Source: Stichopus chloronotus
Lineage: Eukaryota; Echinodermata; Holothuroidea; Aspidochirotida; Stichopodidae
Direction of reading: 5' to 3'
Assembly: GCA_021234535.1 (NCBI GenBank)
Contig: CM037830.1
Location: 32,771,405-32,835,404, forward strand
Length of the DNA stretch: 64,000 bases
The translations under genes and the position numbers were made by a program. The notes below the pieces were generated by a model. That model was not told the DNA's origin. It saw only the letters and a program-made list of their open reading frames with translations, and searched no databases. Below are positions 1 to 53,090 of the stretch, in pieces (within the stretch, counting starts at the first letter, position 1; each line of letters opens with the position of its first letter).

Positions 1-453
1 GACTTAAATGTTGCATGCATGGAATTTAGCTAAGGATTTCATGATCTGCACACTCCAGTGAAATGTCTGTCATCTCTACATCAATTCCTAAAAAATTAAG
101 TAAATGATCCCCTCACCATGTTCTGGCAAAGAGCACCAAAAAATCGTACATCATATAAACAATACTTTTACAATTCCTCACAGGCAAAAAAGTCTACAGT
201 AGGTGACATGAACATTAAGTTGAGACATTTTATTTTTGGAGGTCTCAAGCTTCATTTTCATCAACAAAGCTTTTCACATATAGCTAAGTGCCAGCTAACT
301 GAAGCCATCTGCAAATATCTTGAGAACCACACCATCATTGGCATGGGGTGAATCTTCACAAGACTGCTTCCATTATTTTTACAAATATCAAAGTTTATGC
401 CCTTACTTTAACTACATGACACAGAACACTAAATTACTGACAGAAACACTTAC
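1..453. other. Intronic sequence downstream of the PB1 exon; nothing else seen
   Basis: On the minus strand this follows the strong donor (GTAAGT) that ends the PB1/SAMD3-like exon, so it is best read as the start of an intron. I see no convincing continuation exon here. The remaining coding sequence of that gene is expected beyond the left edge. Confidence 0.5.
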
Positions 454-1476
454 TTCACTTTCCAAGAAAAGTCCTGGCCATCTTTCTAAGATGTCTTTCA
501 CTGGTGGTGTACTGATAACCAATTCCTTTCTTCTGTAGGCATACGTCAGGCTCATTCGAGAGTGTATCACTGTCATGTTTTTATTCTTTTTCTGCATTTC
601 AGAGATAAGGCTAGCTCGGTAAATTTCCATGCTGGTGTTGTCTTCACCCCTGGGAAGCTCTGGTAGGAAGTTAAGCTCAGCCCTTTTAGCCTTTCTAATT
701 TTTGGTGTGGACACCCCCGGACAAGATCTTTTCTTTGAATTAATTTTCATTCCTAGGCAATCCAATTTTCGCATTTTGGCTCTCATGTTTCCCATTTTAA
801 ATTTCAGGCTGTTGACTAACTCATCAAAGCCAGATGCAGATCCTTTCTCTGTTAGACATGGGTATTTAGACAAAATTGCCTTTGCAACTTGAATGTACTC
901 TAAATGAGTTGGGTAAGGTTTATACTGCCAGATATGATTTGAAATTAAATCCAAAAACTGGCTTTTTAGGTCTTTCCCCAACACAAGTTGATCTTGACTA
1001 CTAGCAAACTTTGCATTTCCTGCCTCAAACACAATTTCCAGTTCAGGTCCCAATTTGGGGATCTGAAAAACCTCAGGCCATGAACCTTGTCGTAGTTTTG
1101 TTTCCAAAGACTGCAAGTCATCTGATGAGCTGATACTGATTGTATCATGTGAGCTATCTGCTACTGAATCCTCACTTGTACTGGCACTGCTTAAGTCACT
1201 ATAACTGACATTGCTCAAGTCAAGGGGAAGGTGAGATGCTGGAGAACTAACAACTTTAATTGTGGCAATGTCCTGAGGAAGTTCATTAATGTCTGTCAGG
1301 GAGACCATGTCTCCTCCGAAATCACTATCTGCATACTGTAAACTGAAATCATAGTTTATATCAAATTTGCTCATGATAATTTCCTTCAAATTTTCAACTG
1401 AATTAGGTCTCTCCTGAAGGCAGAGTTTCCTTATGTTTGAATCAGTGATGACTACCCTTAATTTGAATGGATCCAT
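454..1476 (-). CDS. PB1-domain, SAMD3-like protein, first coding exon (partial gene)
   Basis: The exon has 341 codons from the ATG at 1476. That start is chosen because a pyrimidine-rich acceptor ending in AG (1488-1487) lies ten bases upstream, so extra codons further upstream would be intronic. Residues 1-76 look like a PB1 domain: a basic first strand, then an acidic OPCA-like stretch around residues 50-64 (DSDFGGD...). A Ser/Asp-rich linker follows to about residue 130. The rest resembles the body of fish and invertebrate 'SAMD3-like' proteins (WPxxFxIPK, YPxxxEYIQVAKAI, KYPCL, YRRKELV, RWPGLF). The exon stops in phase 0 at GAA/GTAAGT (454/453), in the middle of a conserved region, so the gene continues left. 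PB1 domains mediate heterodimerisation; the function of the rest is unknown. In the family, as I recall it, these proteins are linked to C2H2-transposase genes like the one next door. No catalytic role is claimed. Confidence 0.72.
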
Positions 1477-1531
1477 GATTTGGTATCTGTACAAAATAAA
1501 CACAAATGAAATGAATTTGGATGACTGATCA

Positions 1532-4183
1532 TCAGCATAGTACTGCTACATAGTGCTTCAAGACAATTACTTTTTCACCATGACTTGAATAGCAAGGCAA
1601 AGGGAGGTAATCAGACAGATCCTCAGGTCGAACAAGTTGTAAGGTATCTGTATCATGTACCTTAAATGCACCCATATTTTTTAAATAGCTACATCCAAAA
1701 TGTTTTACAACAAATGTAATATTATCACTCACTATGATGAGTTGAATTTCTGCAAACTGTGCTAAGCCCAAAGTGGCACTAGCAACAAGAACAAACATGC
1801 CATTTGAATACTTTGTCCCATCTATTACTACTGTGTCTGACACTGAAATTGTTGAAGATGGAAGCATATCAGGAAGGACTTTCTTTACGTCTTCTGAGAG
1901 CAGTGCAGCTTGTATACTTGCAACATTTTCGACAACAACTGATTGGCCAAGAAAATGTGGAGAAGCTAAATGGTATGCCTCCATTAACTGATGTCTTCTG
2001 GCTAATGTAGCAAGTATGTTCTTGAAGTTACTAATACCTCTAATGATTCTCTTAAAAAAATTGTGTTTAGCTTCAAATCGTATCGTAGATACATGAACTA
2101 AAGGCCCAAAAAGTTTTATTTGATCTGCATAATGTTGGCTAAAGTGGTGCTTTGGTTTGAATCTAGAGTCTGGAAATGCCTTCTTGAAAATAATTTTGTG
2201 TTCTTTTAGATATGTTTGAAGATGACCAACCATTGTATTTGTAAATACAGGACTGTGAACCATTTCCACAATATTTCTGAGTGACAGTATTACTGCCATA
2301 GCTGGATCACTGTCTGGTACACGACCTGCTACATACAATGGGAATAATCGAAGTAAGGTCCAATTTTCTGACTGATTTCCTCCAATGGTGCCTTTTGCCC
2401 TAAAATTATCTCCAATAGTCTGTGGTCTATTCACTCTGTCAGCACCTTTATACTGAAAATGTTGCACCTGAGAGTTGAAATACTGCAAAGTAAAATATTT
2501 GTTAGATATGAAATGACCAAGACTCAGGGCTATTTCATAAGGAACTACTCCCTCCAATAAATCATGTGACACATCAAAGGGAAGACCTTCCGTTACATGA
2601 AAGTGTTGCAAATATTCATGCAAAACACATTCCATTTTAACACCATATACTCCTGATAATTTGGAGTCCTCTTTCACTTGTTGAACATGGTACCTGTAAT
2701 TTTCCTTGTCTCTTTTTTGGCACTTATCAACTTCAAACTTAACGTTCTGTAAATCAGAATTGGTGGCCATACAAACTCGACACGGCCTAAGTACGTGAGG
2801 GCCAAAGCTCTCTTGAAATCCTCCAATTTGGTGTGCTCCAAGGTTATCACTGCAAATATAAACAACTGTGCCCCTTAAATTTTCTCCTAGGGTCTCTATG
2901 AAAACACCTTCCTTTTCAATAAAAGAGAGATCGTTCCAAAGAGGCAAAAAAGCCTTTTTGAAACCAAATTCTTTTAGATGTATAGATTTTACCAGTGCAG
3001 CAAGCTGTATAACATGAAGTTTTGAACGATACTTGGAAGGGATATCAGCCAACACCCAGTATGCACAGCATATTTTATGTTTTTTCTTGGACGTACCGAG
3101 TGGGTTGCAAACTTCCCATTCATCAAAGTATAAACCTATGGCCAATCTATTTGCTTCAAAGCGAAAAAAGGGATTACTTTGATAAATATGTCCATCTTTA
3201 AATGAAACATATTTGACGCCTCTTTCTTCTTCAGATAAGATTTTGTCCAACACATCATTTCTTTTTAACAACTGCCTAATCATGTCAGGTACCGATATAT
3301 ATACCATACTGCATTGGTTGCCATTGTATTTTCCCAAGTCAAATTCTTGAGGCTCAACGATGTGAAAATTGTCTCGGTAGTATTTCTGTCTCAATTTGTG
3401 TGTAGAGAGCTCACCTGCACATCCCCCAGGAGTTGTTTGCATGCTTTCAACAAATGGATATTGTGTAAAAAACATTTCAGTGACCATGTGGATTGTAGAA
3501 GAGTCACATTCAGGCTGACTTTCCAGCATTCTTGTAATTTTGGCCTGTAGCAATGGCCTGGACAATGAGTGTATTTCTACAAATTCATGAACTATTTGCT
3601 GAATAGTTGCAACAGGAACATGTAAAACAGATTCCAGTTTAAGCATGAACAGGGCAATTTTGTTGACTATACTATCCTTTACAATGTTACAAGCATCATT
3701 ATGGACTAATACTTCATCACTACAATCTACATCTACAGCATCCATCTCAAAATCACTTGATTCACCCTCTTCCCTTGCAGTTTGCTGTATGCCATGATTT
3801 ATTTCTGCATTTCTGTGATTTCTACTCTTGTGAGATGAAAATGTAGCCAGTACATTTGTTTGAAAGTTACAGTTTTGGTAAGGACATTGGACTGTTTCAT
3901 AATTCTTGAGATGTCTATTCAAATGACTCGCCAAATTACTGACAACATTTTGACAAACAGTACACATTTGCTGCTGGTTTTTAGAAGTTACATGTTTCTT
4001 TGCATGATGCTTTGCAATGTGAGTTTTCAAAGCACCCACTGATTTTGAAGAAACAAGACAATTTGCATACAAACAGGGAAAAGACCTGTTTCTCCCCTGA
4101 TGGGAATGTCTCAGCCTGTAGCGCTTGAACAACCTGACACGTTTATCACATGAAAAACTGCATATTTTGCATTTCCAACTCAT
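1532..4183 (-). CDS. C2H2 zinc-finger protein with DDE transposase-like domain
   Basis: This is one uninterrupted ORF of 883 codons. The N-terminus has three good C2H2 fingers, at residues 37-59 (C-x4-C-x12-H-x3-H), 74-91 (C-x2-C-x9-H-x3-H) and 100-123 (C-x4-C-x12-H-x4-H), plus a weak one at 5-28. After an acidic linker (about 137-160) comes a large domain resembling the CACTA/KDZ-like transposases common in fish and echinoderm genomes. Its landmarks are YFDEWE (D354), YICSDNLGAHQ (D446), a CRVC knuckle (468-471), DVSHDLLEGV (537-546), GPLVH and RFEAKHN (E704). D354 or D446 with E704 are my candidates for the acidic catalytic residues. It could be an active transposase or a domesticated derivative. 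The intact length and absence of stops suggest recent activity or selection. I did not find terminal inverted repeats around it. It ends only 45 bases before the acceptor of the PB1 exon on the same strand, so the two may share a promoter by alternative splicing. Confidence 0.8.
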   Translation of the reverse strand: MSWKCKICSFSCDKRVRLFKRYRLRHSHQGRNRSFPCLYANCLVSSKSVGALKTHIAKHHAKKHVTSKNQQQMCTVCQNVVSNLASHLNRHLKNYETVQCPYQNCNFQTNVLATFSSHKSRNHRNAEINHGIQQTAREEGESSDFEMDAVDVDCSDEVLVHNDACNIVKDSIVNKIALFMLKLESVLHVPVATIQQIVHEFVEIHSLSRPLLQAKITRMLESQPECDSSTIHMVTEMFFTQYPFVESMQTTPGGCAGELSTHKLRQKYYRDNFHIVEPQEFDLGKYNGNQCSMVYISVPDMIRQLLKRNDVLDKILSEEERGVKYVSFKDGHIYQSNPFFRFEANRLAIGLYFDEWEVCNPLGTSKKKHKICCAYWVLADIPSKYRSKLHVIQLAALVKSIHLKEFGFKKAFLPLWNDLSFIEKEGVFIETLGENLRGTVVYICSDNLGAHQIGGFQESFGPHVLRPCRVCMATNSDLQNVKFEVDKCQKRDKENYRYHVQQVKEDSKLSGVYGVKMECVLHEYLQHFHVTEGLPFDVSHDLLEGVVPYEIALSLGHFISNKYFTLQYFNSQVQHFQYKGADRVNRPQTIGDNFRAKGTIGGNQSENWTLLRLFPLYVAGRVPDSDPAMAVILSLRNIVEMVHSPVFTNTMVGHLQTYLKEHKIIFKKAFPDSRFKPKHHFSQHYADQIKLFGPLVHVSTIRFEAKHNFFKRIIRGISNFKNILATLARRHQLMEAYHLASPHFLGQSVVVENVASIQAALLSEDVKKVLPDMLPSSTISVSDTVVIDGTKYSNGMFVLVASATLGLAQFAEIQLIIVSDNITFVVKHFGCSYLKNMGAFKVHDTDTLQLVRPEDLSDYLPLPCYSSHGEKVIVLKHYVAVLC

Positions 4184-6399
4184 AATGCTGTGACTGTTTC
4201 ACAACATTCAGGAATTAATTGTCAATGGACTAAAAATTTGATAAACCCACTAGCCAAATCAGTCCGAATATGTTGTTAGACATCTTTTCTTGATTACTAT
4301 TGTCCATTCACATCACATAAATTTTGCAACTGACCTTGGGAAAAGATCTGACAGATGAGTCTGTTTTTAATATTGGGTTAATGGTTGCACAGAAAACCGC
4401 ACCTCAAACGACAGCATGTTCAGTCATGGAATAATTCCTGCAAGATAAAAGAAAGCAATTGCATCAAGTGTACAAGAAATTTGCTTTTAAGTATTTCCAT
4501 GTCATATACAACTTACAGTAAATTAAAATGCACTCATGAACTTTTCTTTCACAAAAATGTTTTCATGTTTACCTATAACAGTTACATGAATACAGGCCTG
4601 CATGCAGTTAAAACTTTTAACTTTTTTCACTGGAGTGGCCACAAAATTGTCAACAGTTACAACTGGGCTATTTGAGTTACACACTCATGATGAGATACCA
4701 CACAAAACAGATGATCACTGCAATCTTGATTAGATGATCAAGAACCCTGAGCACATTTTGAGGTCCTGTCAGTGTTCAATTTAAAACTCTTGACAAATAA
4801 CATATGAAATTCTGCTTTAATCCTCAGTTAAATCTTCAGCCTAGTATAGGTATAAAAAAGTGGCTGTTTGCTGTAGCAATGACACAACTATTCATAAAAA
4901 GGGTAAAGTGCAATTTTTTCAACCCCCACCCAGTGTTCAACCCCCTATTGTTATTCATGTCTCTTCTATCCCATTTAAGAACTGTCAATATGGTCACACA
5001 TAACCTTTGGAGCCAACCTTGTATTAGCCCTCAAACAGGGCTGTGCATTAGCTTACATGGTCTAAGCACAGTACACTCCACTTTACAGCCCTTGTCCAGC
5101 TAACACTAATTTCTGTTCATTAGCTGACAGAGTATCAGAGCAATATTTTTTCTCACCAAACTTCACATACCCAATAACCTCTAGCATCCCATTCACCTTA
5201 ATGCAAAAGCTTTTCCAAAAGTATGATGCATGAATGAATGAATTTTTAGTGAAAACACTGACCGTAACAATCTGCAATGTGTTACATATACCATGACTTA
5301 CAGTGAGCAATATATTTGTGAGAAACCTGTAGAGGGTCAAAGGTCACAAAAATTCCTGTAGAAACTGACTGTGCTACTACCTAGGCCTACTCATGTTGTG
5401 TGTACACGTACATATAGCACACGCCTACTGTATACCGAAAGGAATGTAGTGTGCACAGGTATAGGCCTAGTACTTGAGTCTGCATAAGCAGATGAATGTA
5501 CGTACATCTCCGCCAAAATAGGCCATGTATTAGTTTCACACAGAACTTGCACAGTTTACCACATTTTTATTTCCTTGACAACAGAAGTCCCTTTCCATCA
5601 TGCATTACGAAGCGGCAACGATGGACAATGTCATCTGCAGAGGATCAAAGCCAATTTTTGCCGATTTTTTTTCCGCAAATAATCACTAAATGCACATTTA
5701 AACCAATGCACTGCAGTACACCTGCAGTGATGAACAGTAATGCACTCTAAGAATGATTCTGTCTGAGACTTTGCAGTAATTTAGGTGGTGCGGTCCATCA
5801 TTGCAAGACATAATTTGACACAATTTTGTGGCTACGGCGTACAAACTTTCCATTATAGTATGCAAATAAATAATTGGGTAGGCCCTTGCCAAGTGTCAGG
5901 TCTACTGTAAGCCCTGGGCTTAATAATTACTTGGCATTCTTGTCCAATTACTAGGCCTAGGCAAGGCCGAGCTGTTTGTATGAGGATAATTGCTTTATGT
6001 CATGTCCAAACTTCATGTTCAAACATCGTGTAGGATACTGGCGTACAGGCTACATCATACGTGTCACTCAAGGCTACGCATATCAAGGCTAAAGCTACAC
6101 AGACTGACACTTAGTATAACGTTAGGCTAGGCCTACGTCACTCAACAGCTCTACAAGATTTAGCCTAATGTAGGCTAGACTGATTATGAATGACAATACA
6201 ACCAACAAAATGAACACTTAAGAGCCACAGACTGCCGTGGCGGATCCTCGGACGAGACTTTTGATAGCTTACTTTAAGTCACTGCTGACTTACAGCTTAG
6301 ATTATGGAGTAAATTTTGTATTGAAATGTAGATCTAGCATACCATCCAGTTCCCATCGATGATCGACGACACCAAATTCAGCAACGTTTGTTCAGTTCA

Positions 6400-6600
6400 A
6401 CTTCAAATTCACAGCGCAGCGCGCCCAGTACAGAACAGTTGCTATACGTACGCTAGCGCATAGCACCTGCACCGCGCTGTGTACATGTAGTGCAGGCCGG
6501 CTGCATACGGCATGCATTCGTTGTACGTACGTATACCGTATATGGGCATATATCGTACGACGGTCGTGTCGGGGCACGGTTTTTATATGCAAATTTAAAT
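6400..6600. promoter_or_regulatory. CpG-rich block, possible promoter
   Basis: CpG dinucleotides and self-complementary CG/TA words (cgcagcgcgc, gtacgtacgtata, cgtacgacggtcgtg) are much denser here than in surrounding AT-rich DNA. It lies about 2.2 kb upstream of the minus-strand transposase ORF. The PB1 exon's 5' acceptor implies an upstream non-coding exon, which could start here. This is inference; no TSS motif is evident. Confidence 0.25.
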
Positions 6601-7213
6601 TACATTTAAAGTTTTCAAACTGGGAAAACACGTCAAGAGGAGACAAAATTTAATTACAAATTTGTTCAGAATATCAGACGTAATCAGTGCTTAAATTTTA
6701 GTTGCATACTTACAAAAGTCAAGCTGACATTTTTTTGGTAATACAATTTGCTCAAACTAACCTCTAATGCATATTCAAATAGATATGATAATAATGTCAC
6801 AAATTGGTGCGAAAGGAAGATGAACATACTTTATTCGAGTCATTGCAACGTGGATAGAACAAGTGTTTTGGACAAACTTCGATAGAACTTACCAGTTATG
6901 AGTTATCTCAGCAAGATACGTGATCTTAAGTAATAGTAACCTCTGGGCATTGAGTTGACGTAACTATTTCACTGAACTGGGTTTTACAGTGTATATATGA
7001 AGCGGTCATTTCCCTTATGTATTTTATCGTTATTACTTCAGTGTGAACACCGTGACGTGTTCAAACTCTCTTACGAAAAGTATTTCATTACTTTACAGTG
7101 ATAGGAATAAGCTAAGATAGGAATAAGAATAAGAATAAACACAAGAATTTTTAAATCATAGCAAGTACTAGGCTAAATCTCTCTGTTTAAATTTGAATTT
7201 TCAGAGGAGAATG

Positions 7214-7579
7214 GTAAAAGGAAATAAAGTGTTTAGAAGTACCAACATGACATACCAAGAAAATAGCTTTAATCATTGTTAAACCATTCAGTCTCACCAA
7301 TAAACATGAAAAAAAAACTTGAAAGCTTTATCCCCTCAAAACATTATGCATGTGATGGGTAACGGATAATGTATCATTTGAATTTTGAAAAGTTTGGGTG
7401 AACAAATTATTGTTGAGTGACAGCTAAGTGCATTTCTATCTTCTCCGAGAAACGTTTTTTTTTTTAAACGGAGGCTGCTGTCCTTCCTTGTTCTGAAAAA
7501 TCTTTTATACTATGTTCACAAACATAGCTTTTAAAACTATGGTGGTTTTTCTGCAAACAAACGCCTTATTTCCCTTGAA
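7214..7579 (+). mobile_element. TTAA-type MITE, copy 1 (degraded)
   Basis: The termini are decayed forms of the AGGGAAATAGGGCGTTT inverted repeat (left AAAGGAAATAAAGTGTTT; right AAACGCCTTATTTCCCTT). The interior shares long blocks with the copies at 44,813 and 52,252, for example AACCATTCAGTCTCACCAAT and GAAAAGTTTGGGTGAACAAA. The TTAA flanks are mutated. The orientation matches the copy at 44,813. Confidence 0.75.
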
Positions 7580-9848
7580 ATACTTACAGTAACAGTTCAT
7601 AAACAACATTTTACCCCCCCCCAAAAAAAAAAAATAAGAAAAAGAAAAAAGAGGTAGTGATAAAAATGTGAACTGTGTATAGCCATGACGTTAAGCCAGC
7701 AGTATACTTCACAAGATTGTGTTTTTGACTATATAGCTCTTTATACAAGCCAGAGAAATCGTTTACATGTTTGTCTATTTAACGGAAACTTCAGAATCTG
7801 ATGTTTATCGGGGTCTGTAGTTGATGTATAAGGAAATACACGACGAAGTAAAATGACAAAAATGAGTTTTTTCCTTCTTCCCCTTGCTGCCGTGATAGTA
7901 ATGAGACAATTAATTTGAGATATCTGAGATTAGTAAGAGATATACGCCGGTATGAATATCCTGAGTGTTAAAACCTATCGTGTACGTAGTTCTCCACACT
8001 TTCAACTTTCGACTTGTTTCCGTCAAAGGGCGCTCCAGGGAGACAGGCTGAAAGGGATGTTTTGACAGAGTATTTTTGGAAAATTGAATACGGTATGCCT
8101 GGAGTGGATGAGGGGGGGGGGGGGGGTCGATGAAGAAGGTGTATAGATGGCGCTGGGGGGTACCCCTGAAGTTGGATGACGATCTTTCCCTCGAGATCGG
8201 CTAGTGTTGATTTCTTAAAGAGGCACGTTGGATTCTTTCCTGAAATTCACTAAAGTTTCCTAAACCATGTCAAGTTTGCTTCAAATGTTGGTGGCCATTG
8301 TCAAACTAAGAGGATCCTCATGTGTGACATACAAAGGAACATTAATGAGTGAGTTATTAACGATTCAGTTTCTTTTTGTTTTTCTTTTTCTTATTTTTCT
8401 TTTGACAATTCGTGAGAAGACACTTTTCACATTAATACATATGCAGATGCTGCACAGCTAGTTCAAGTCAGGGTTACAAATTCAAAAACGCTGAAAGTTT
8501 TCATCGACGTTAGATGTGAAACTTGACTAATTATGCTAAGCATATGATGATGGAATTAAAGTTATCGTAGTTGTTGCGGTCTGTTGGCTTTTCGTCAAAC
8601 TTTTTATAGCCGACTGTTTCCAGGGGCTTAAATCCAATATTCCAGGCCATGTAGGCCTAACTTGCAAAATGATGGCGGAAGCCTCGGCTGATACTACATT
8701 AGAGACCAGAATAGATGTCGCGCATAGCTAAAGGCGACGGCGCTACACAGAAATATCAATTTCCTACAACACCCCTCGAATCCGCAAACGAAGTTCGCAT
8801 TCATTTGATACGTGAATATAAAATAGATGTGCAAGAGAATGCAGGTAACTTAAACACATAGTTCGATGCTTTTACACTAAACGCGAAAAAGAACCCTTGG
8901 TTATGCTTGTACCGTTGTCATGCAAAACTAATTACGCTCATTGCCTCGTGTATATATATTCACATTTATATTTTTTTTCATATAGGCCTACAGATATTGA
9001 AATGAAAATATATTGAGAGAATGGCATTGTCGGAATTGGTAAATGTTAACACAAAATATCTAAAAATAAAATGTAAAAATCAAATGGATGGAGATGAAAC
9101 TTTGCGGAGTAGACCTTTAGATTAGGTTCCTTAACAAATTAAGATATCTTTGATGACTGCTATTCCTATCATTTTATCGTGTCAATAGTGTAACGAAAAG
9201 TCTCGTGTTCGATCTTGGGCTCCAAGGGAGGGTTCCATCGGGGCTCGGTTTGTATGAGAGGTTCAAACCAGCCCAGCGGACAAAAAACGAACTATTCGAG
9301 CCCCCCCCCCCCCCCCCTCTGGTGGAAGAACCCGTGTGGGAGTTTTTTTTTTCAACTTGTCCTCTGGCACAACTTTGTTTACACGCTTGACGAGAAAAAC
9401 TTCACAAAACAATATTTACTTAATCTCTGTCTCCTTTAAGCTGCAGTAACAAGTTATGTCTGCCTAAATATCGCATTGTTGAACTTTGGTCCCTATCTGT
9501 TTGACAATTACCCTGTCCACTTGGGTAACTGTATCCGTAGGTAATACAGCGTTGGTTCATAATCCTAATTAAACACCGTTCGTTCACTGTATGGTATTAG
9601 CATGTAGCCATGTGTTAACGGGAGCTTGAAAACCATTCTCCTGTTTGCCTGTTTGCCTGACGAACGGGCGTTTCTAGACAGTGGAGTCGTCCGCAAGTCA
9701 TTGCGATTATTTAATTTGTATCATTCCCTTACATTTATTTAACGCAAAGTAACCTTTTTTCGGTTTGGAGAGAAGCTGCTTTTGGTAACGTGATATAAGG
9801 ATCCTGTAAAACTTTTGAAATCATTCTCCTTCGATATTAAAGAACAAA

Positions 9849-12800
9849 ATGGATTCTAATGTAAAAAGGAAACGGCCGAGAATTAATGACAAGTCCCAGC
9901 TGCTGTCACCCCAGGAGAACGAACAGCTATTTGCCTTGATAGGAAAAACCTCCCAGGTAAGAGTACAATAAAATGATCAAAATATGAAGGAAACGAAAAC
10001 CTTCAATGTCTTGCCAATTTTTTATTATTGTGTAATTACTAGCTACACGTAAAGATCTTGTTATTCAATATAGTGATGATGTTGCTAGCTATTCATGATA
10101 AATTCATGCTTATCTAGTATTTATCGTAATTCTGTTGAGAATAACAAAGTAAAAAATTGAAGGGGAGGAGCCCGTTACACAACTTGAGAAGGGAAACAAA
10201 ACCTGCAGGGAATTATACCTATGTTGTCACGCCATGACGCCAAGCTGTGTGTCTGTAACCCTTGGTTTAGGCTGTCATTTAAGGGGTCCACAGCTTCAAT
10301 TAATTTTAATGAGTAACACCGTCAGTTATTCAAAGTAATTGCGCTTTCTTCACAGTTTCCTCTACACTGCTTAGCTTAAACATAAGAATCGATTAATTTA
10401 GTCATTGGAGAGACTTGTGTTATGATTGTCATGGCGATCGATTTACACTTTGAAGGTGATGTTACGAAACATTTGTTACATCTGCAGAGATGGCGCATAT
10501 AATTATCAAGCATAAACAAGTAGAGTCTCTAAATTTTGTGAATTGACTGTGGTCGGTTAACCCTTAGGCTCAGTTATTGTAATATTTTTTTAAGAACTTT
10601 ATATAAATGTCATCCTTGTCTTGCTAAAAGGTGAGATTTACCTACAGTGAGTGTGTGGCAAATATTGGCATACTTATGAAGTGAACAATGATTCCCCCTC
10701 CCCCATTGTAAGATATTACCAACTGTGTTACGAATTAGTGATATTATACTTTACTGCTGATATCAGCAAATAACCAGGTAACCAAAATGACTAGCATATG
10801 AGCGAACACTGATCATGTTAGTCCTCGGGACGACATATAGTGTCACAAGGGCACAGAAAGTGTAAAATTTGGGTTTCACCTCGCATGGACGTGCTAAATA
10901 TGTAGATAAGTGAAGATAATTTTCCTTCGGACAAACCAAGAGGTAAATGTAAAAACGGCTTACCAAACGACCGTATTACCTCTCAACGTTATGTAGGTTT
11001 CCCATTTGTAGATCCCATACCACCAGTATCTCTCCCACTGACTAACACACTAAACAATGAACGGTCTTTTGGGACCCTGTGTGATATCAGAAATTTCGCA
11101 TCTATCAAGTTACTGGTAATGGCCTGGCCTATCATAGCGTTTAAAAATTTCTGTATGTCCACCACTCAAATTTTGAGCTATAAGGGGTGGAACGTTTGAG
11201 AGATGCTACTGCTTCATTAACAAGGCTCTCCACCCGGAACTGCACCACATACGACGACACCTTCCAGTTACTAAAACAATCTAAATCTCCCAATCTTCCT
11301 AATCGTCTCACCATCTATCCTTTAATTGATGTTTGTCAACATCCAAATAAAAAATTACTGATGATATGTGTGAAACATGAATAAAGAGAGAGAACCGATT
11401 GGCTGAATTTATGCACTTTTCGCAACGGTTAACAAATTTCGCGGACGTATAGAACGCCAGTTCAACATTAAATCAGGAATCCGAGATATCTCTAATTGGT
11501 TGTTATTGTAGATATCTAAATTGAATTGGAGGTATGTGAAACTGAATTTCAGAAACTTTACATTCAATTCGAGATATCTGTAAAGTAATTCAACATATCT
11601 GACATTCTGTTTCAGATATCTGAAATACAATTCGAGATATCTTAAATTCAATTTGCGATATATAAAATTCTAAATTGGACATCTTAAATTTGATAAAAAG
11701 TATCTACAATTCAGTTGTTTCAGATATCTGAAATTGAATTTTAGATATCTGAATTGAATGTGAGATATCAGAAATTCTATTTCAGACATTTCAATTTCAA
11801 TTCGATATATCTAAAAACCATATCCAAAAGCTATGAAAAGACACTAAAATTGAAAGCTGCATAACCATGTATGATGTACTGTGTGCGGATACCGTACAGT
11901 ATGGGCCTATACAATAGTATACCTACTTCCATCCTACAATGCACCGTACCTAAGGACTAGTCCTAGCCAACACAACGGCAATATGTTAACTAATAATTAT
12001 TGCAATAATGTGATCCTACTTGACCTATCAAAATTGTGAATTAAAAAAAAAGACATGGACTGCATTTCAGATATCTTTAATTTAATTTCAGATATCAAAA
12101 ATTTAAATTCAGATATCTTTAATTCAATTTCAGATATCTTAAATTCAATTGCAGATATCGTATTTTTTAACCTTAAATTCAGTTCATTCACATATGCGAC
12201 GTTCAAGCGACGTTCGATTCGAGACATCTGAATTCGAATTTAAGGTATCTGAAATTAAAGGTTAGATATCTGAAATTTGAATTTTAGACATCTGAAATCA
12301 AGTTTTAGGTATCTGAAACTAAATTTTAGATATACGAAAATAAATTAGAGATATCTGAAATCAAATTTCAGATATCTGACACTGATTAGATATATCTGAA
12401 ATTGACTTGTAGATATCTATAAGAGAATTTCAGATATCTGAAATCTAATTTTAGATATCTAAACTTCTTTAGTATTTTGAGATCTCTCAAATTATTTCAA
12501 GATATCTGCAATTATTTTTAGAAATCTGTAATAAATTTAAAGATATCTGAAACTCAATTTAAAATATCTGAAATTAATTAGAGATATCTGAAGGTAATTA
12601 AAGATATTTGAAATCCCTGATTAAATGTTTAAATGGCTTTCCATACCGACGCACATTATCTAATGGTGGCATGTGAACCAGCATGGGGTTATAATGTATT
12701 GCAAGAGCCATAACACGCGCTTCGTATGAAATAAACTTTATACAGAGATACTATGTTTAAAGGTAGATAAGAGGAACTTTCCTTTTAATCTGAACTTATT

Positions 12801-17700: not shown

Positions 17701-20700
17701 GAGATTTTTTTTCTGAAGAAACTGTCGGAGATTCACAAGAACTACCAATGCCCTAGTCCTTCACTGTCCTTGGTGAATAGTGACTAGTACATCGAAAAGA
17801 GTGGCATGGACAGTAACGCCTTTCTCACTGAATAACCGTTTTAAAACGTTCGGTGGGGGATAAAACAAATGTAAGATTCGAAAGGATTTATTTTCTAGCC
17901 TTTCACTGTCCTTGGTGAATAGTACAGCATACAGAGTGAAATGAGCAGTGATGAGTCTTCGCGGCTGACCAAATTACCGGTTTCAAATCTAAGTTGGTGG
18001 GGGGGGGGGGGGACAAAAGATTTAAAGGATCGTGATCTCGTGAAAATGGTACCGTCCTATCCTCGTTTTGGCTCTGAATGGTACAATGCAATTCGTTCAT
18101 TTCAAACAATTATTACAGTTTTCCATCACTTGTCTCGACACTTTTCATCTTCAATTACATTTTCTGAATTATTCCGGCATTTGAAATGGTTGTTTTTTTT
18201 TTACTTGCAAGAAAGAAACTTTCTAAATGTCTAACTTCATCTTCTAATTTCACAGAACTCCATGGGGATAGAGGACCAGGATCTTAGAGAGTGGTGCAAA
18301 AAACTGAATCTGACGGAGGAGCAATATCAGAGTCAGCTAGAATTTATCAAGAGTTGGGTCAACAGCCAGGGTGGACTAGACGCTGTCAAAATGAAAGAAG
18401 AAAAAGAAATGGCAATGAAAGGTTAATAAAGAAAGAAAGTTTACTTGATTTTCTTATATGGAGAATAAACATAACTTGATATCTCAGTGCAACGGAAAAC
18501 CATTAAGGTCAACCTCCTCAAAGTTTGTTTGTATTTCTGGGACGTTTGTTTACGATTCTGTTTACTTTTAATCCTATGTTTATGCAAGTGTGATCTCGTT
18601 CCCGGGACTTTTGTTTTAGTTTCTTTTTCACTTTTAGTGATAGTTTTGTTATCATTGGCATTTGAGGAAATTGCCGGAAATTGCTTTTCTTTACTGACAC
18701 CGGGTCCGATGCGGAACTACAATGTAGGCTTGATACTTCTTTACTATAAGCAAATATGAAAAGCACCTAATAGGATGCTTTTTAATGTTACCAGAAGCCT
18801 ACAAACTAGGAACCGTTGTACGGAAGTAGTGCAGTCACTCAAACAGTGTTAATCAATCCTTTTATTTTTTCCTATCATTAATCGTATTAAGGAATGTTAC
18901 AACATGTGTTTGATATGCTCAAGGGAGACCTTCACAGGCGTCTGTAATCTTTCATGGCTTAGTATTCCATTTGGGGCAGTAATATACTACAGACTTTTAT
19001 TACATTCACTACAGTTTGTGAATATCATTTACATCACTCAAATTTTAAACATGTTTTTTTTAACTAGTTCTAAATTGTGCATACCTTGAATCGCTGTCGT
19101 AAACTGACGCTAACAATGCAACCGGTCTATCCCCTCTACAGAAACAAGAGGAGCATCGTCTAAACGAGGTCCCCCTCCACCGGTTCCGACAGCTCAAGGA
19201 CGTGCTTCAAATCGAGGACCTCCACCTCCATGGCCTCCTAACGCTTCCAACTCGTCGCAACCTCCATCATTTGCAACATCACCTCCACCACCTCCGCCAA
19301 GTCGAGGATCTTATCCTCCTAGCCTACCGCAGAACCCGTCAAATCAGTTCGCTAGTCTGTCTAGAGCAACTTCCAAACGGTCACAACCTTCGTTTGTGGC
19401 TCCCAAAGTACCACCCTCTGGACCCAGCGTTGGGTCATACCCTCCCTCGTCACCACCGCCAGCGCCACCACCACCTCCACCACCTCCACCACCTCCACCA
19501 CTGCCAAATCAATCCCTCAGCCCAATGGGTGGTCCTTCCCCGCCACCACCTCCCCCTCCACCACCGCCGCCTCCACTGCCATCTGAGCCTGCACTACAGG
19601 TTTCTGAATCTCCATCGAGCCCTGGATTCCCATCGCCACCGCCTCCACCTCCGCAGGGTTTCAATGAATCAACAGGAAGTCGCGGGGGACTCCTCAGCGA
19701 GATTCAAAATGGAGTAACGCTAAGACGAACTAACACTGACTCCAGTTCTGACAACAAAAGCCAGGGAAGCGCACGTGACAGTCTGATGGAACAAATACGT
19801 GGCGGTTTTACATTGAAGCCAGTGAGTAAATGAGTAATACCTACACACAATTTGTAGACCATTGCTGTTACCTATGTATTTATTCATGTGGCAAATAGTA
19901 TGTCAAAAAGACTAGACTGAGCCTTTACTAAAGATGTGATTCGAGATTACAGTGCAAAGTACTTAACTACTGTGTTTGCTGTTCTTGTTTGTTTTTGTTT
20001 TCTTTTGTTTTATAAATTATAAAGATGACGAACGTTTCAGTCGTTGGACTGAGTCAAATTAGCTCTACAGGATTTAGTGACATCGACTTGAAACCGTAAA
20101 TTTGAACTCTCGCCGTCTCTTTCTAACGCAACGAACTTCCTTGATACCCACAGTATACATAGATTCGTCTCACTGAGATGGCCATGCAATGTATTCTTCG
20201 ACTTTTCCGTTAGGTTGAGGATCGTGACTCGGACGGTGACACTGCGAGCATCAATTCTGGTGACTTTGGATCCATGGGATCGGCACTTCGTCAAGCTCTC
20301 GAGAAAAGAGAAGCTGCCATTCGAGGTAAATCTGTCATTTTTGATGAAGGATGGAAAACCAAGATGGACATTAGGCTAAAGCTACAGAAGAAAGGTCCAC
20401 ACGGATGGGATATCGTACCATGAAAAATAAAGACATCATTCTCGAAGATCCATTGTATGTGTGGGTCTAAAAATGTAGGAAGTTATCAATTAAGCTATAG
20501 AAAATTGTCCTGATTACGTCAACAACATGTCACGTGACCCTAGACCCGTAAACGTTACCCGGCAATTCTTTCATCTATCTCGGGCATGTTCTGTTATTAC
20601 GCTGCAAAGGCGTTTAGATACATCGAGTTACAGTTTAGGTGTCCTTTGATCAACAATATAAGCGATGTTTATGTACTTTAAATCTGTGACACATTGAAAA

Positions 20701-31392: not shown

Positions 31393-34300
31393 CTACATCA
31401 AAACAAAAACAACAAAAAAGGTAAAAACCAAACAGAAAATGGAAATAAGGATACTGCGATTCATGTGTTAAAAGAGGTCCATTCTGGTGGAAGATTTAGA
31501 AGAATATTTCAGGAGATCACCAAACTCCTTTCACAGATGAGGAATAATCAATAACTATTATACAAGTTTTCATGCACAAACAACAACCACTTGGTCCACA
31601 AAAAATATTGAAACTGTGATGCATTTCATAATGCTAACATTTGAGACAGCCTCCTGTAAAATTCATTTACAACGACATGATGATGTTTAAGTTGCGCATA
31701 GTTTGCCTGCGCTGGTCGATGTGAAACTTCAACCTCACAGGGTTGGTCTAAGTGATGCATGTTTGTCTGTCAGATGGGGGGCATCAAATGGCAAGTCCAG
31801 GGAGCAGAACTGAGTTTGCACTGAATGTGGTTTGTTATCCTTAAAGTGGCCATGTGTTTATCTTCATCCTGATGAAGCAGTTTACTGGAGGGATGCTCAC
31901 CTAAAGCTCAATCGAAGACATTCTCTGAAGTTCTCTAAAGTATAGGTGAACTCCAAAACATGATGTACATGATGGATGAGTTCCCTCCCAATTTTGTAAC
32001 TTATTGAGTGACGGGCTTGAAAGACAGGCGTTTTAGACCTTTTGACCTCAGTATCAACTTTTAATCTTCATGGAAGACAATTCTGATCACCCCACACAGT
32101 GAGCCATACTGGTCTGCAAACTTCAAAGTTCCTGAACCTTGCACTTCTTTGAAATATTGTGTACAATTAATTTTTGGGAAGTCAAATGATCTTTGACAAA
32201 TTAAAAAAAGGAAACCTACCTTTGATCCAATTATTGGACACTAATGCAACAACATTAAAATACATCCCAGCCAAGTTAGAAGAATTAAATAGCATCTGCA
32301 ACATACATACATACATGACCTGCATTCATTTGACTCTTGGCAAGGAATCAAAAAGGAGACACTTGGAAGGGTGGATGGGCAGGGGGGGGGGGTAATATTA
32401 CTGAGTTCATGCTTCTGTCCACCTATATAGATCAGGGAGCTGTTACCCTTAGATGCCTGGTTAAATTCAGTGGAAAGTTTCAATGTCTCAGGTCACAATA
32501 TCAAGAAGTGAAAAATACAGACAACTGTAACATGACAAGAAGAATGTGAAGGGTGCCACTGAGAATGCCAGTGAAATTGTTGGTTAGTACTGCCATCAAC
32601 TGATTGACAGCAATCAGATACTGACCTTCTTCAGGTCTTTACCACTTCTAATGGCCTCCAGCAGGGCATCTCGTCCACTTGGAGCTGCTCTGGGCTGTTC
32701 GTTTTGGTTGACTGACTTGAGGGACGCTCCGGAGCGGATGTCAGATAACAAGTCTGCTCTGCCACCAGATGATCCACCTGGTGGTGGTGGAGGGGGAGGT
32801 GGTGGTGGGGGACCACCACCCATGGGAGGTGGTGGTGGAGGACCACCACCCATCATTGGTGGAGGTGGAGGAGGAGGAGGAGGGGGAGGTCCATTGCTTT
32901 GGGGTGGAGCCGGTGGTGGGGGAGGTAGTGATGAGGAAATCGGTCTTGAAGGAGGTGGAGGAGGCGCAGGCATAGGGGCAGCAGGTGGAGGGGGCCGGCT
33001 CCCACCCGGCCGTGTTCGTCCGACAGAGGGAGGTGGTGGAGGGGCATGTCCCCTGTTGTTGGCACGGGTTGGTGTTGGTGGCAACGGCGTGCTCCTGGTT
33101 GGTGGTGGAGGCAAATCTCTGTTTGGTGGTGGAGGAGGTGGAGGGTTACCTGTGAACAGAGGAGAGAAAGAAAAAAGTTGCAAGTCCAAATGCTGTATAC
33201 GATACCAACTCTCAAAGGTAAAATGGTTGGAAAATAAGCACATTACCTTTTCACCCTTGGTTTGATTTTCCTTTTTGTAAAGGAGCACTAGAGTTGTTTT
33301 GTGAAATTGACAATGCATTACAATCCTGCCGGGATACCTTCCTGCACTAATAACAAGTAGTCCAAAACAAATAAACGTTAGTGAATAAGCAATTAATGAT
33401 TCATGAAATTTCATGACCAGACACTTTTCACATTTGTACCACAGCACATGCACACAGTCAGGACAAGCCAATTTAAACAAAAATGCACAAATGCATTGTG
33501 ATTTCAATGACACGATTATCAGGATCTTTTCTCAGAATCGGATGTTATACATTAGGATGAGTCACAAGCTTAACAATTTGACCCTTGTTGACCTCAAATG
33601 ACTTTAACCTCCACTACAAACAACAGAATTCTTGCATGAGATTAGATACACCTACATACTAAAGAAGAGACCAGTCCAAGATTCTTCCATTGCGATATGA
33701 TGTTTACAAGAATGTCACATGTGACCCCTGTTGATCTAAGATGGCCTTTGACCTTCAACATAGAGGATGTGATTCTTGAACTGTATGAGATAAACCTACG
33801 TACTAAATAAGAGATTTTTCCAAGCTTTCTTCTTGAGATACCCTCTTTACACAGTTTTTACAAGCGTTGTTGACTTCAAATGACCTTTGAACTTCACAAA
33901 AATCAATAACTGTCTTGTACTCAATGTGGTACACCAACATATTAAACATAAGGTTTGCCGAAGCTTCCCTTCTTGCGATATGTTGTTCACAAGGTTTTTA
34001 CATTTTGACTCCTGTTGACACCATATGACCTTTGACCTCTATCAAAAACAATTTACTTAATGTGGTATAAATGATGAAAACTGAGAACTGTTTAAATTTT
34101 CCTACTTAAAATATCACATTTACAAGGTTTTCACAATTTGACCCCTGTTGACCTCAAATGATCTTTGACTTCCACTGAAAAAATTCGGTTCTTTTACTTG
34201 GTACAGTACATCTACATACAGAGTATGAGGTCTTTCCAAGCTCTTTCAGATATCATGTTTACAAGGTTTTCACATTTTGATCCCTCCTGACCCCAAATGG

Positions 34301-43300: not shown

Positions 43301-46300
43301 TCTTCTACACAGTTGTTAATTTAAATTTTGCATTGATAAGAGTGAAAAGAATGGCTGCTCAGCTGCGCTAACAAAAGATGAGCTTTGTCTGAATAGCCTA
43401 GGCTTAGTGCACTGCGGTAGGCGATTGACTTAATGATCCTATTGTGACTCTACATGGACGACGCAGAAACAAAGAAGTAAAGAATTGGGCTAATTCTGTA
43501 ACTTTGATGGTTGAGACTGGTCGTAGAGATAAACAAACAATAGTCGTGTTTTACTGCAATAAAAATCGATACAGATTGAAAGAGTAAAACAGAGAGACAA
43601 AATGTTGTCAAAACTAACCATGCTAAAATTTCACAGAGCTTGTGTAGGATGACAGTTTTGTGCAATCGAACAGCCAGTTCAGATAAACAGGGTTTTACTC
43701 TACTATATACTTTTGGCACTCCTAAAATTCCAAATAACCACCAACCCCAATCCCTATCTTTCTTCTCCTTGCTGCAAACTTACCAACCTCTAGACTGGCA
43801 ATAACTTAGGATTCTCGCAAGAAAACCTGAAAATCACATTTTAAACCTTGATGACTTTAAAAGTTCATAACTGTTGCAAAAAATGTTTTCTAAACTAAAA
43901 AGATATAGATTTTTTTCTTTAACATCTTTGCCACATAAGTCACCCTTCTGAGAACAATACAACTGCAATCCAAAAATGACTTGAACCAGGAATGGATTGG
44001 ATTGATCTTGGTCTAACTAGGGAACATCTAGCATTATATCAACATGATTTTCAAAGTGAGAAACTGGCAATTTCACCGTGAGATGTGTCAAGAAACCGTG
44101 AGACTCAAGGTGAAACCGTGAGACTCATGGTGAAATCGCGAGACTCAAGGTGAAACAGTTGGAGTTGGTAAGTCTGTTCCTGCCTCTTGATTACAAGACG
44201 GAAATTGTGGAGGCTACAGTACTCTTACCAGGTATATTTGTCTGTACAGGAGGGGGACTTCCTGGCAGTGGCCTTGAGGTTCTTCTGTTAGGGTCGCCGC
44301 CACCTGGTGCTGATGGTGCCTGTCTGCGTCTCTGCTCTGATTATCAGAAAGAGGATGAGAGGTACAGTATTGGTATCAAACTATTTTCGTACATGCAACA
44401 TCAACAGTTACCTCTCATGATGTCATAATGAAAATAGTTGCTGCTTTTCTGTTTTCTCAGGACTGTGTTGTTAACATTCTTTTTCATGAACAATGACAAA
44501 CTAATATGCATCGATGGTGTGAAACAAAATCACATTGTCAGGAGGTTCACAAATGTCAGGCTTACAGTATACCTACCTCTTCTCTGTGCCTTTTTGTGAA
44601 GTTTTTCCAGTACCACATTTTTGAAATTCCCAGCTTCTTCATCGGAGGAAAAGTTCATACCAACCCAAAATTCCTGAAAGGAAAAGAACAATCGACATGA
44701 AAATGTGAATCATTCTTATGTGTACCATAAATGTATCTCTCTCCCCAGTGACTGACAGAAGAGGAGAAAGGAGGGAACTTGTGGGTAGGGGGTACACAAA
44801 ACAAATGTGCATTTAAAGGGAAATAGGGCATTTAGAACATATACCACCATGGCATACGAAGAAAATAGCCTTAAGCACTGTTAAACCATTCAGCCTCATC
44901 AATAAACATCTGCAAAAGCTGAATAACGGAAGATGCATCGTTTGAATTTTGAAAAGTTTGGGTGAACAAATTATCAATGAGCAACAAATAACTGAATTTC
45001 TATCTGTGAGAAACTCAGTTCTTGAAAAGAAGGCTACTGCCCTTCCTTATTTTGAATAACCTATCATTCTATGCCCACAAACATTGGTTTTGTTTTACGT
45101 GAAACAAACGCCTTATTTCCCTTTAAGACAAACACTCGTTGGTTCACAACAGTCACCATCATGTGTTAGTTGTTGATGCAAACACAAAACCAAATGGCAT
45201 ATAACCGCTGGAACGAATGTTCTACAAAGGGATAGAGTTCCAGCCAGATCCCACGAGTAAGAGAAAGATTTTGCACACAGAGCTGCAAATGCAGAATTAT
45301 CGAACAAGCAAAGAATACTACTTCATATGCTATTGAAGTTCCAGGGTGAAACAAATATAAATACACATCGAACAGTTTACCATCGCTCAATGTCTAATGG
45401 CAGTTTTCGGTTTCTATTATCACAAGACATTTAAAAGAACACATACTCACATCAGAGGCAAAGTAATGGAAGAAAGAACACTGGCTCTCGTATTTGAGGT
45501 TATTATAAATCTCATGTTCCCAGATCAATTTCTGCTCCTGTAAGAAAGAGAAATAGGTCCCATTACATTAAAATGCAACTTTAACTCAAAATTCTCATCT
45601 GGACTTATCTGTTCCTTTGTCACCATCTGATATAATTTATCCTAGGATCAAATCAATTCTCGTGAAAGCAAACCCACAGTAACCCTACAATACTGTGCAG
45701 CAGTCTGTCTCATTCCAAAGTGAATGCACTTTGGATGCGGTACAGTACGCCCAGTTGAGGCATACTGTATGGACAGAGAATGATAGTGCTAATGTAGAAG
45801 GAAGTACAGTACAGTAAAAGAAGTTTTTGTGCACAGCAGAAAGCCAGTTGATATTGTACAATTACTTGACAGAAGGACATTCAAGGCACTGACTTACTGT
45901 AAGTCAGTTGGTCGTGTGGACAAGAATACTGTACTTCCAGATCATAACTTGAACAAGTTTTGGGGAAGAAAACATCAAAATCTATCAAAGCATGCAGGGG
46001 CAGGTGAGTGAATGTTTATCACCTCGAAGTCCGTGGGAAAACAACGAACTTCTGGGAGACCCAGAGTAGTTTTTTGTACAGTACAGTTCAAGTGGTTTTA
46101 CAATGGCTGCAATAGTTCACAGTTCATACGGTATTGTACAGAACTGTACAAGTAGAGTACCGGGATAACTTTCATCCACTTTCAGTGGCTATTAATTGCG
46201 TCAACATGCAGAAACCATGGGGCTTTGACAGCTTTCCACATGTCTTTGACCTGATCTGATCCACTGTAGAAATTAAGGCTTCCAAAAATGCAAATTTCCA

Positions 46301-52251: not shown

Positions 52252-52606
52252 TTAAAGGGAAATAGGGCGTTTGTTTTACAGGAAACATCCATATTTTTAA
52301 TACCGGTATTTGTGGATGTAGAATGATAGTATATTCAAAATAAGGAATTACAGTAGCCTTTTTTTCAAGAAATTCGTTTCTCACAGGTAGAAACTCAGTT
52401 ATTTGTTGCTCCACACTAATTTGTTCACCCAAACTTTTTAAAATTCAAATGATGCATCTCCCGTTACTCATCACATGCATAATGTTTTGAGGAGATGAAG
52501 CTTTGGCAGGCGTTTAGTGATGAGACTGAATGGTTTAACAATGACTAAAGCTATATTTCTTTTGTAGGTCATGTTGGTGTATTCTAAACGCCCTATTTCC
52601 CTTTAA
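52252..52606 (-). mobile_element. TTAA-type MITE, copy 3
   Basis: It is bounded by TTAA at 52252-52255 and 52603-52606, with perfect inverted termini AGGGAAATAGGGCGTTT and AAACGCCCTATTTCCCT. This is the best-preserved pair of ends of the family. The interior is an inverted match to copies 1 and 2. It lies about 1.05 kb upstream of the WASP-B start codon. Confidence 0.93.
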
Positions 52607-53090
52607 GCTTCCCTCAAACTAGAAAATGTGGTTACAAGTATCGCAACTATCTACTGTCCATGACTGTTCCTGCCCTTTATTATTTTGGAACGTTCCAGCA
52701 GTTCCCTGATTAACTATGCCACTGCAGACTGTGGCCCCATATCTGATGTGATTTGTGTATATGTTACGAGCGTCTATACCGTCTCTGTGGAGGGACTGCG
52801 ACCATATACATATGCACGGAACAATTATCACGCTTGCATTTACAGTGCTGTACACCGTTGGGAGTTTGACTTACTCAAGTCTTAAATTGCGACACATCAA
52901 AATACAAAACTGCCAAAATAAAAACCAATCTTATTAAGCCATATCCCAACCAAAATTTACAACGAAGTCCCGTTCCCGTCTATATGCTCGGCTCAACGCA
53001 ATGATCTCAGTTGTAGAGCAAACCACTGAATCCTGATCAAGAAACATTGATCAAGAGAACTGCCTCTGGAAAAACGAGAAGCGTGCCTAG

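Follow-up and report, generated by a model that had tools for sequence, protein, structure and literature searches.

A probable two-gene CMCT transposon with a RAG1-like transposase and a PB1-domain partner in the sea cucumber Stichopus chloronotus

In the maize En/Spm system, TNPA acts as an accessory beside TNPD. Transposons of the CACTA/EnSpm-Mirage-Chapaev-Transib (CMCT) clade share, according to the available text of the source, a signature of two aspartates and a glutamate (D, D, E), the second D and the E being separated by a stretch that contains C(2)C and H(3-4)H, together with 5'-CA..TG-3' termini and target duplications of 2-5 bp (PMC12730594). The same text describes CMCT elements with extra genes, namely TET/JBP in fungi, and fungal EnSpm-like elements with TA target duplications, called ESTA (PMC12730594). 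Animal CACTA transposons are already known since SmTRC1, which, in the available part of its description, makes a transposase and accessory products via alternative splicing and was reported to have no detectable conservation outside the transposase domain (PMC1636069). In plants, the accessible portion of a report on MUSTANG-B (MUG7/MUG8) ties a PB1 domain to a transposase lineage, where an extra 5' exon of a single, domesticated gene encodes it (PMC8616336). Here we analysed a stretch of 64,000 nucleotides (the window) from the sea cucumber Stichopus chloronotus (contig CM037830.1, positions 32,771,405 to 32,835,404 of the forward strand), which contains the 5' part of a DNA transposon with a zinc-finger transposase gene followed by a gene for a PB1-domain protein (the partner). 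We consider it highly probable that this element is a recently mobile, two-gene, cut-and-paste CMCT transposon with a RAG1-like transposase and a PB1 accessory partner. The coordinates of its parts are collected in Table 1.

The transposon is 11,602 bp long and lies on the minus strand, with its first (5') 6,991 bp inside the window (6991 down to 1) and the remaining 3' 4,611 bp beyond the left edge; element coordinate x corresponds to window coordinate 6992 - x. Seven near-identical copies were found in the animal's own genome, sharing an abruptly ending stretch of 11.58-11.61 kb with a pairwise identity of 99.42-99.96%. The repeat CACTGTAAAACCC and its inverted counterpart bound the element in all seven copies, whose termini read CACTG...CAGTG; in the window, CACTGTAAAACCC has a single match when up to one mismatch is allowed (0.09 expected). 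A 2-bp target duplication was present in each copy; six copies have TA, and the seventh has CA, as a direct duplication rather than a longer palindromic end. A 3-bp direct duplication was found in none of the seven. The flanks differ from copy to copy, the sole common piece at the sensitivity used being one 78% repeat between two copies. The coding exons contain no indel columns among the seven copies, as compared to 38 in the non-coding DNA of the element (27 of them in intron 3). The initial annotation had proposed looking for terminal inverted repeats (TIRs) and target duplications outside positions 1-6,600, and these were indeed located, as a 13-bp TIR at 6979-6991 and a 2-bp duplication at 6992-6993. 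A TIR search restricted to the window up to position 12 kb had recognised none, because the other end of the element is off the window; the whole genome resolved it.

In all seven copies, a single pair of inverted repeats, with its target duplications, encloses both genes. This result, together with the linkage of the pair elsewhere, agrees with the proposal of the initial annotation that the two genes form a two-component transposon in which one protein is a PB1 partner. The 58 PB1 matches in the animal's genome correspond to 38 loci, of which 21 have a listed transposase within 10 kb, always upstream and on the same strand (21/21; 0.0014 expected per locus). Eight of the 17 remaining PB1 loci were fetched (L051-L058), and all carry a C-terminal remnant of the transposase about 250 bp upstream; in the 3.1 kb upstream of each, matches to the transposase fall solely between residues 710 and 883. 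It is possible that these loci are internal-deletion derivatives which retain the partner gene. Seen from the transposase side, a PB1 match lies no more than 10 kb away at 21 of at least 49 loci, own-genome transposase counts being lower bounds (51 of 253 candidates scored). In a C5 family with 56% transposase identity (L009) the PB1 gene lies about 250 bp downstream, and in families at C9, C5 and C14 (38-41% transposase identity) about 0.8 kb downstream.

Of the 28 transposase loci that gave no PB1 match, seven were examined downstream, and a profile of the partner was applied to four of them (C22, C6, C12, C16). It matched at E 5.6e-20 in C22, 8e-18 in C16, 3e-8 in C12 and 2e-6 in C6, as compared to a best E of 0.11 in 12 control pieces of 5 kb taken from the window. 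Three further loci (L028, L031, L032) have open reading frames (ORFs) nearly as in C22, with weak partner matches of their own (E 0.012-0.041). Partners of the C22 type (L027, L028, L031, L032) have a different N-terminal ORF of about 100 amino acids in the place of PB1, in the first 300 bp or so, and L029 and L033 (C6 and C12 type) have another small N-terminal ORF there. A SAM (sterile alpha motif) domain in the former and a beta-grasp domain in the latter were seen by eye only; neither was supported by Pfam and PDB sequence searches.

The same order of the two genes was found in fish, where the initial annotation had suggested looking for adjacency: six of the 157 collected proteins are fish gene models that join the transposase to PB1, namely P0042, P0077, P0154 and P0156 (Coilia grayii), P0068 (Merluccius polli) and P0155 (Astyanax mexicanus). 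We take these models as gene predictions showing adjacency, not as fusion proteins. Protein P0138 starts with a 23-residue piece of the transposase before PB1. A search with the PB1 part alone of a long protein gave six proteins, four with the transposase, one with nothing but tandem PB1 modules and one with a long interspersed nuclear element (LINE) reverse transcriptase. From the linkage, we infer that the partner probably takes part in transposition. A search of viral contigs gave no transposase and no PB1 locus.

The transposase frame (minus strand, 4183-1532) has 883 codons and no internal stop, as initially annotated. It is open in all seven copies, for which the genome search gave 888-aa open frames with 99-100% protein identity. 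Its length and its N- and C-termini match those of many fish homologues (about 880-895 aa), which together with the seven near-identical open copies places the frame beyond chance. The homologue search found 186 proteins, of which 120 were listed; the best named one among the matches listed, from Apostichopus japonicus, is 62% identical. One hundred entered alignment A3, with fusions and some shorter proteins left out, and D354, D446, C468-C471, H680-H684 and E704 are invariant in 101/101 aligned transposases. By their position, D354, D446 and E704 are the probable catalytic residues. A profile of the zinc-finger region matches the TFIIIA, CTCF and GLI zinc fingers in PDB, and the predicted fold of the transposase has RAG1 as best match and HzTransib as the next; the likeness of the C-terminus to a BAH domain is by fold alone. 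At E<=0.1, Pfam matches among 40 homologues were Transposase_21 in 11 (best E 3e-5), Plavaka in 6 (2e-5) and DUF4218 in 6 (7e-3). The transposase of the window (P0001) scored 14.4 bits for DUF4218 (cut-off 27) and had no Transposase_21 match, for which the best homologue, P0085, reached 23.8 bits (cut-off 28.6). The NCBIfam search gave nothing.

Two members of the transposase family turned up under bacterial names. A distant transposase with 28% identity (L001) is on a 3.7-kb contig labelled as an Aquifex metagenome-assembled genome, evidently animal contamination; no PB1 was seen by eye among the ORFs of this contig, which has merely about 0.75 kb of sequence downstream. Protein P0061, filed under Candidatus Epulonipiscium fishelsonii, is evidently host contamination as well.

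The partner begins closely downstream of the transposase on the same strand, as stated in the initial annotation. The acceptor AG is at 1488-1487, the donor GT follows position 454, and 44 nt separate the transposase stop (1532) from the acceptor. The PB1 frame visible in the window (minus strand, 1476-412) passes into an intron beyond residue 341 (...ESE); a further three coding exons lie off the window, which gives four coding exons and a predicted spliced protein of 514 aa. This protein is 91.5% identical to P0126 over 259 residues, without gaps across three junctions, and 87.4% identical to P0152 over 214 residues, again gapless across junctions; the splice sites are therefore supported, and the comparison suggests that a relative of the spliced protein is transcribed. 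After ESE/ESQ, unspliced fish frames have a GT-encoded valine at the same residue, which is joined over in the spliced ones. The partner frame is open in six of the seven copies. Its best named homologue is from A. japonicus (54% identity), and a 214-aa protein of Holothuria leucospilota also matches the gene.

The structure predicted for the A. japonicus homologue of the partner (predicted local distance difference test, pLDDT, 82.2) has a PB1/ubiquitin-like N-terminus, a helical body and an alpha/beta C-terminus. The best fold matches of the N-terminus are p40phox (9.2), Par6 (9.2) and NBR1 (9.1), and Pfam detects PB1 at E<=0.1 in 13 of 27 partner homologues (best 5e-4). The PB1 fold of the partner has an OPCA-like acidic motif, conserved as YxDxDF...LTD; among homologues with a letter at the position, D50 is conserved in 23/24 and D52 in 22/24, and the basic R7 of strand beta-1 in 19/20. 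A PB1 domain with both acidic and basic faces implies head-to-tail assembly. With its acidic motif and its basic beta-1 residue, the PB1 domain of the partner may therefore assemble in this way. The sources of several fish homologues call them sterile alpha motif domain-containing protein 3(-like); unlike SAMD3 by its name, none of the 27 partner homologues has a SAM match at E<=0.1.

By sequence and predicted fold, the element is a member of the CMCT clade: D/D/E with C(2)C and H(3)H, CA..TG termini, a 2-bp duplication and a RAG1/Transib-like fold were all found. Its CACT(A/G)-type ends (CACTG) and two tandem products resemble CACTA/EnSpm elements, as far as these are described for maize En/Spm (TNPD and TNPA) and animal SmTRC1, and so does a transposase weakly related to Transposase_21/DUF4218, with C(2)C and H(3)H. 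However, it has N-terminal C2H2 fingers and a PB1 partner encoded as a separate gene with its own exons, and the available text gives EnSpm a 3-bp duplication (PMC12730594), whereas here it is 2 bp and no match to Transposase_21 or DUF4218 is above the cut-off. Because of the 2-bp duplication and the sub-threshold Pfam scores, the element falls outside EnSpm in the strict sense. With ESTA it shares the CMCT signature and the TA duplication, in six of the seven copies; the described ESTA families, compared by their available description alone, are instead fungal and carry TET/JBP genes, and here one copy is flanked by CA.

Unlike Transib, RAG1-RAG2 and ProtoRAG, the element has its genes in tandem on the same strand. 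RAG2 is a beta-propeller, whereas the model of the partner consists of PB1, a helical body and an alpha/beta end. MUSTANG-B, a derivative of Mutator-like elements (MULE), differs, in what its available description gives, in that PB1 is here in a separate partner gene of a mobile CMCT element. A published mobile CMCT element with a PB1/SAMD3-like partner was not found in the literature, a search with Repbase and subscription papers outside its scope, so that an earlier description is possible.

In the mechanism that we propose, the zinc fingers of the transposase would bind the ends of the element and its RAG1-like core would cut and join DNA. The partner, assembled head to tail through PB1, would act as an accessory factor and might help to bring together the two ends, or a large number of transposase molecules, like TNPA beside TNPD. 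A single promoter region in the CpG-rich first kb might serve both proteins by alternative splicing, possibly with one upstream exon spliced to either frame as the initial annotation had proposed. There (window 5992-6991, element 1-1000) the observed/expected CpG ratio is 1.23 and 0.92, as compared to 0.00-0.53 per 500 bp in the rest of the element. The contrast between a CpG-rich first kb and a CpG-poor remainder therefore suggests that the promoter end is unmethylated and the body methylated.

Several observations weigh against a transposon of this kind. All the Pfam transposase-family matches seen fall below the cut-off. The Pfam PB1 score of P0002 is 17.1 bits, with a cut-off of 23.6, and the PB1 fold match is tied with ubiquitin, because ubiquitin-type structures score 8.4-9.0. 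A TNPA-like protein should bind to subterminal repeats, but a search for these in the element gave nothing clear above shuffles. The copy of the window lacks a histidine at residue 21, which is a zinc-ligand position in the first finger and is polymorphic among the copies (in this residue-by-residue comparison the C23 copy, checked for stops only, is excluded); this copy may therefore be less than fully active. The transposase, called intact in the initial annotation, is so as regards its open frame and catalytic residues, but not as regards this ligand. The remaining points would also be expected if the PB1 gene were a passenger, that is a host gene captured by an ordinary one-gene CACTA-like transposon and without a role in transposition, which we regard as unlikely. 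PB1 modules occur away from the transposase, in tandem in P0153 (a Coregonus fish model) and joined to a LINE-type reverse transcriptase in P0157 (a Brachyhypopomus fish model). PB1 was undetected at seven diverged transposase loci that keep the partner body, and therefore PB1 itself is not obligatory. The C23 copy is a complete element in spite of a premature stop at codon 194 of its PB1 gene. However, the partner body is retained downstream of diverged transposases (about 32-56% identity), the order of the genes is the same in fish, and in fish as in the sea cucumber the intron follows the same residue, which therefore indicates a long association, unlike a recent capture; also the absence of coding-exon indels among the seven copies speaks against a passenger.

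The partner might instead be a repressor or self-limiting factor, with copies that keep it and have mostly lost the transposase damping transposition. This is improbable, even if the eight fetched loci mentioned above, with a PB1 match but just the end of the transposase, are what one would expect of it: five of the eight have stops in the listed PB1 matches (C3:11910961, C6, C5:37564779, C8:11665402, C12:8653387), so that many may merely be decaying, C5:33447046 also has a stop, in a small overlapping match, and the remainder of the transposase could lie further upstream or have diverged too far to give a match. A pair of host genes domesticated from a transposon, which the initial annotation had offered as another possibility, would fit the long open frames with conserved catalytic residues and the existence of P0126 as a relative of the spliced protein. 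It does not suit this copy: with TIRs, target-site duplications and different flanks, the seven nearly identical insertions to which it belongs are the mark of a mobile element. Domestication is therefore rejected as extremely improbable.

If the element is a two-gene transposon, anonymous fish and echinoderm gene models named "SAMD3-like" or "C2H2-type" become a single defined mobile element whose ends are known, which carries two genes and shows signs of recent movement. This would be a complete animal CMCT transposon close to RAG1 in predicted fold, in which the requirement for a partner is directly testable. A wider reading, which we hold tentatively and with some doubt, is that a widespread animal lineage of RAG1-fold transposons needs a second gene with a constant body and an exchanged N-terminal assembly domain (PB1 in certain families and other small domains elsewhere, of which one looks SAM-like by eye), and that the vertebrate gene SAMD3 is a domesticated descendant of this partner. 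If this were true, relatives of RAG1 would repeatedly work with polymerising partners, and SAMD3 would be offered a concrete, testable origin.

Table 1. Parts of the transposon and of its two genes
Feature	Window position	Element position	Strand	Basis or details
Transposon, 5' part	1..6991		-	Shared length and abrupt ends among seven copies
5' terminal inverted repeat CACTGTAAAACCC, 13 bp, perfect	6979..6991		-	Partner copy off window
2-bp target-site duplication TA, one side	6992..6993		.	Both flanks read in 7/7 copies
Upstream region, 2.8 kb, probable promoter/5' exon region	4184..6978		-	CpG profile
Transposase gene, single coding exon, 883 aa	1532..4183	2809-5460	-	Open frame
Four C2H2 zinc-finger units, residues 1-123, probable end-binding domain	3815..4183		-	Cys/His conservation and PDB profile matches
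RAG1-like catalytic core, residues 172-747	1943..3670		-	
Catalytic-signature residues (putative)	D354 3124-3122; D446 2848-2846; C468/C471; H680/H684; E704 2074-2072		-	
C-terminal BAH-like fold, residues 747-874	1562..1945		-	Fold comparison only
Partner exon 1	454..1486	5506-6538	-	Acceptor AG 1488-1487, ATG 1476, donor GT 453-452
PB1 domain, about residues 1-76 of partner	1249..1476		-	
Partner intron 1, first part	1..453		-	Exons 2-4 off window
Partner exons 2-4, off window		7155-7307, 8762-8842, 9798-10085		tblastn of P0126/P0152 and GT-AG sites

Other features were observed in the window outside the transposon. Just beyond the element, at 7204-7579, there is a dispersed repeat of about 370 bp, with other copies at 52252-52615 and 44814-45126 (76% identity, inverted, and 68%, direct). 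At 11478-11815 lies a degenerate tandem repeat of about 21 bp, in which GAGATATCT-like units are abundant and form inverted repeats. Two proline-rich frames with paired WH2 motifs, which we take to be WASP/N-WASP-like, lie about 13 kb apart at 19114-19833 (plus strand) and 32614-33531 (minus strand), with Pfam WH2 matches at E 3e-11 and 3e-15.

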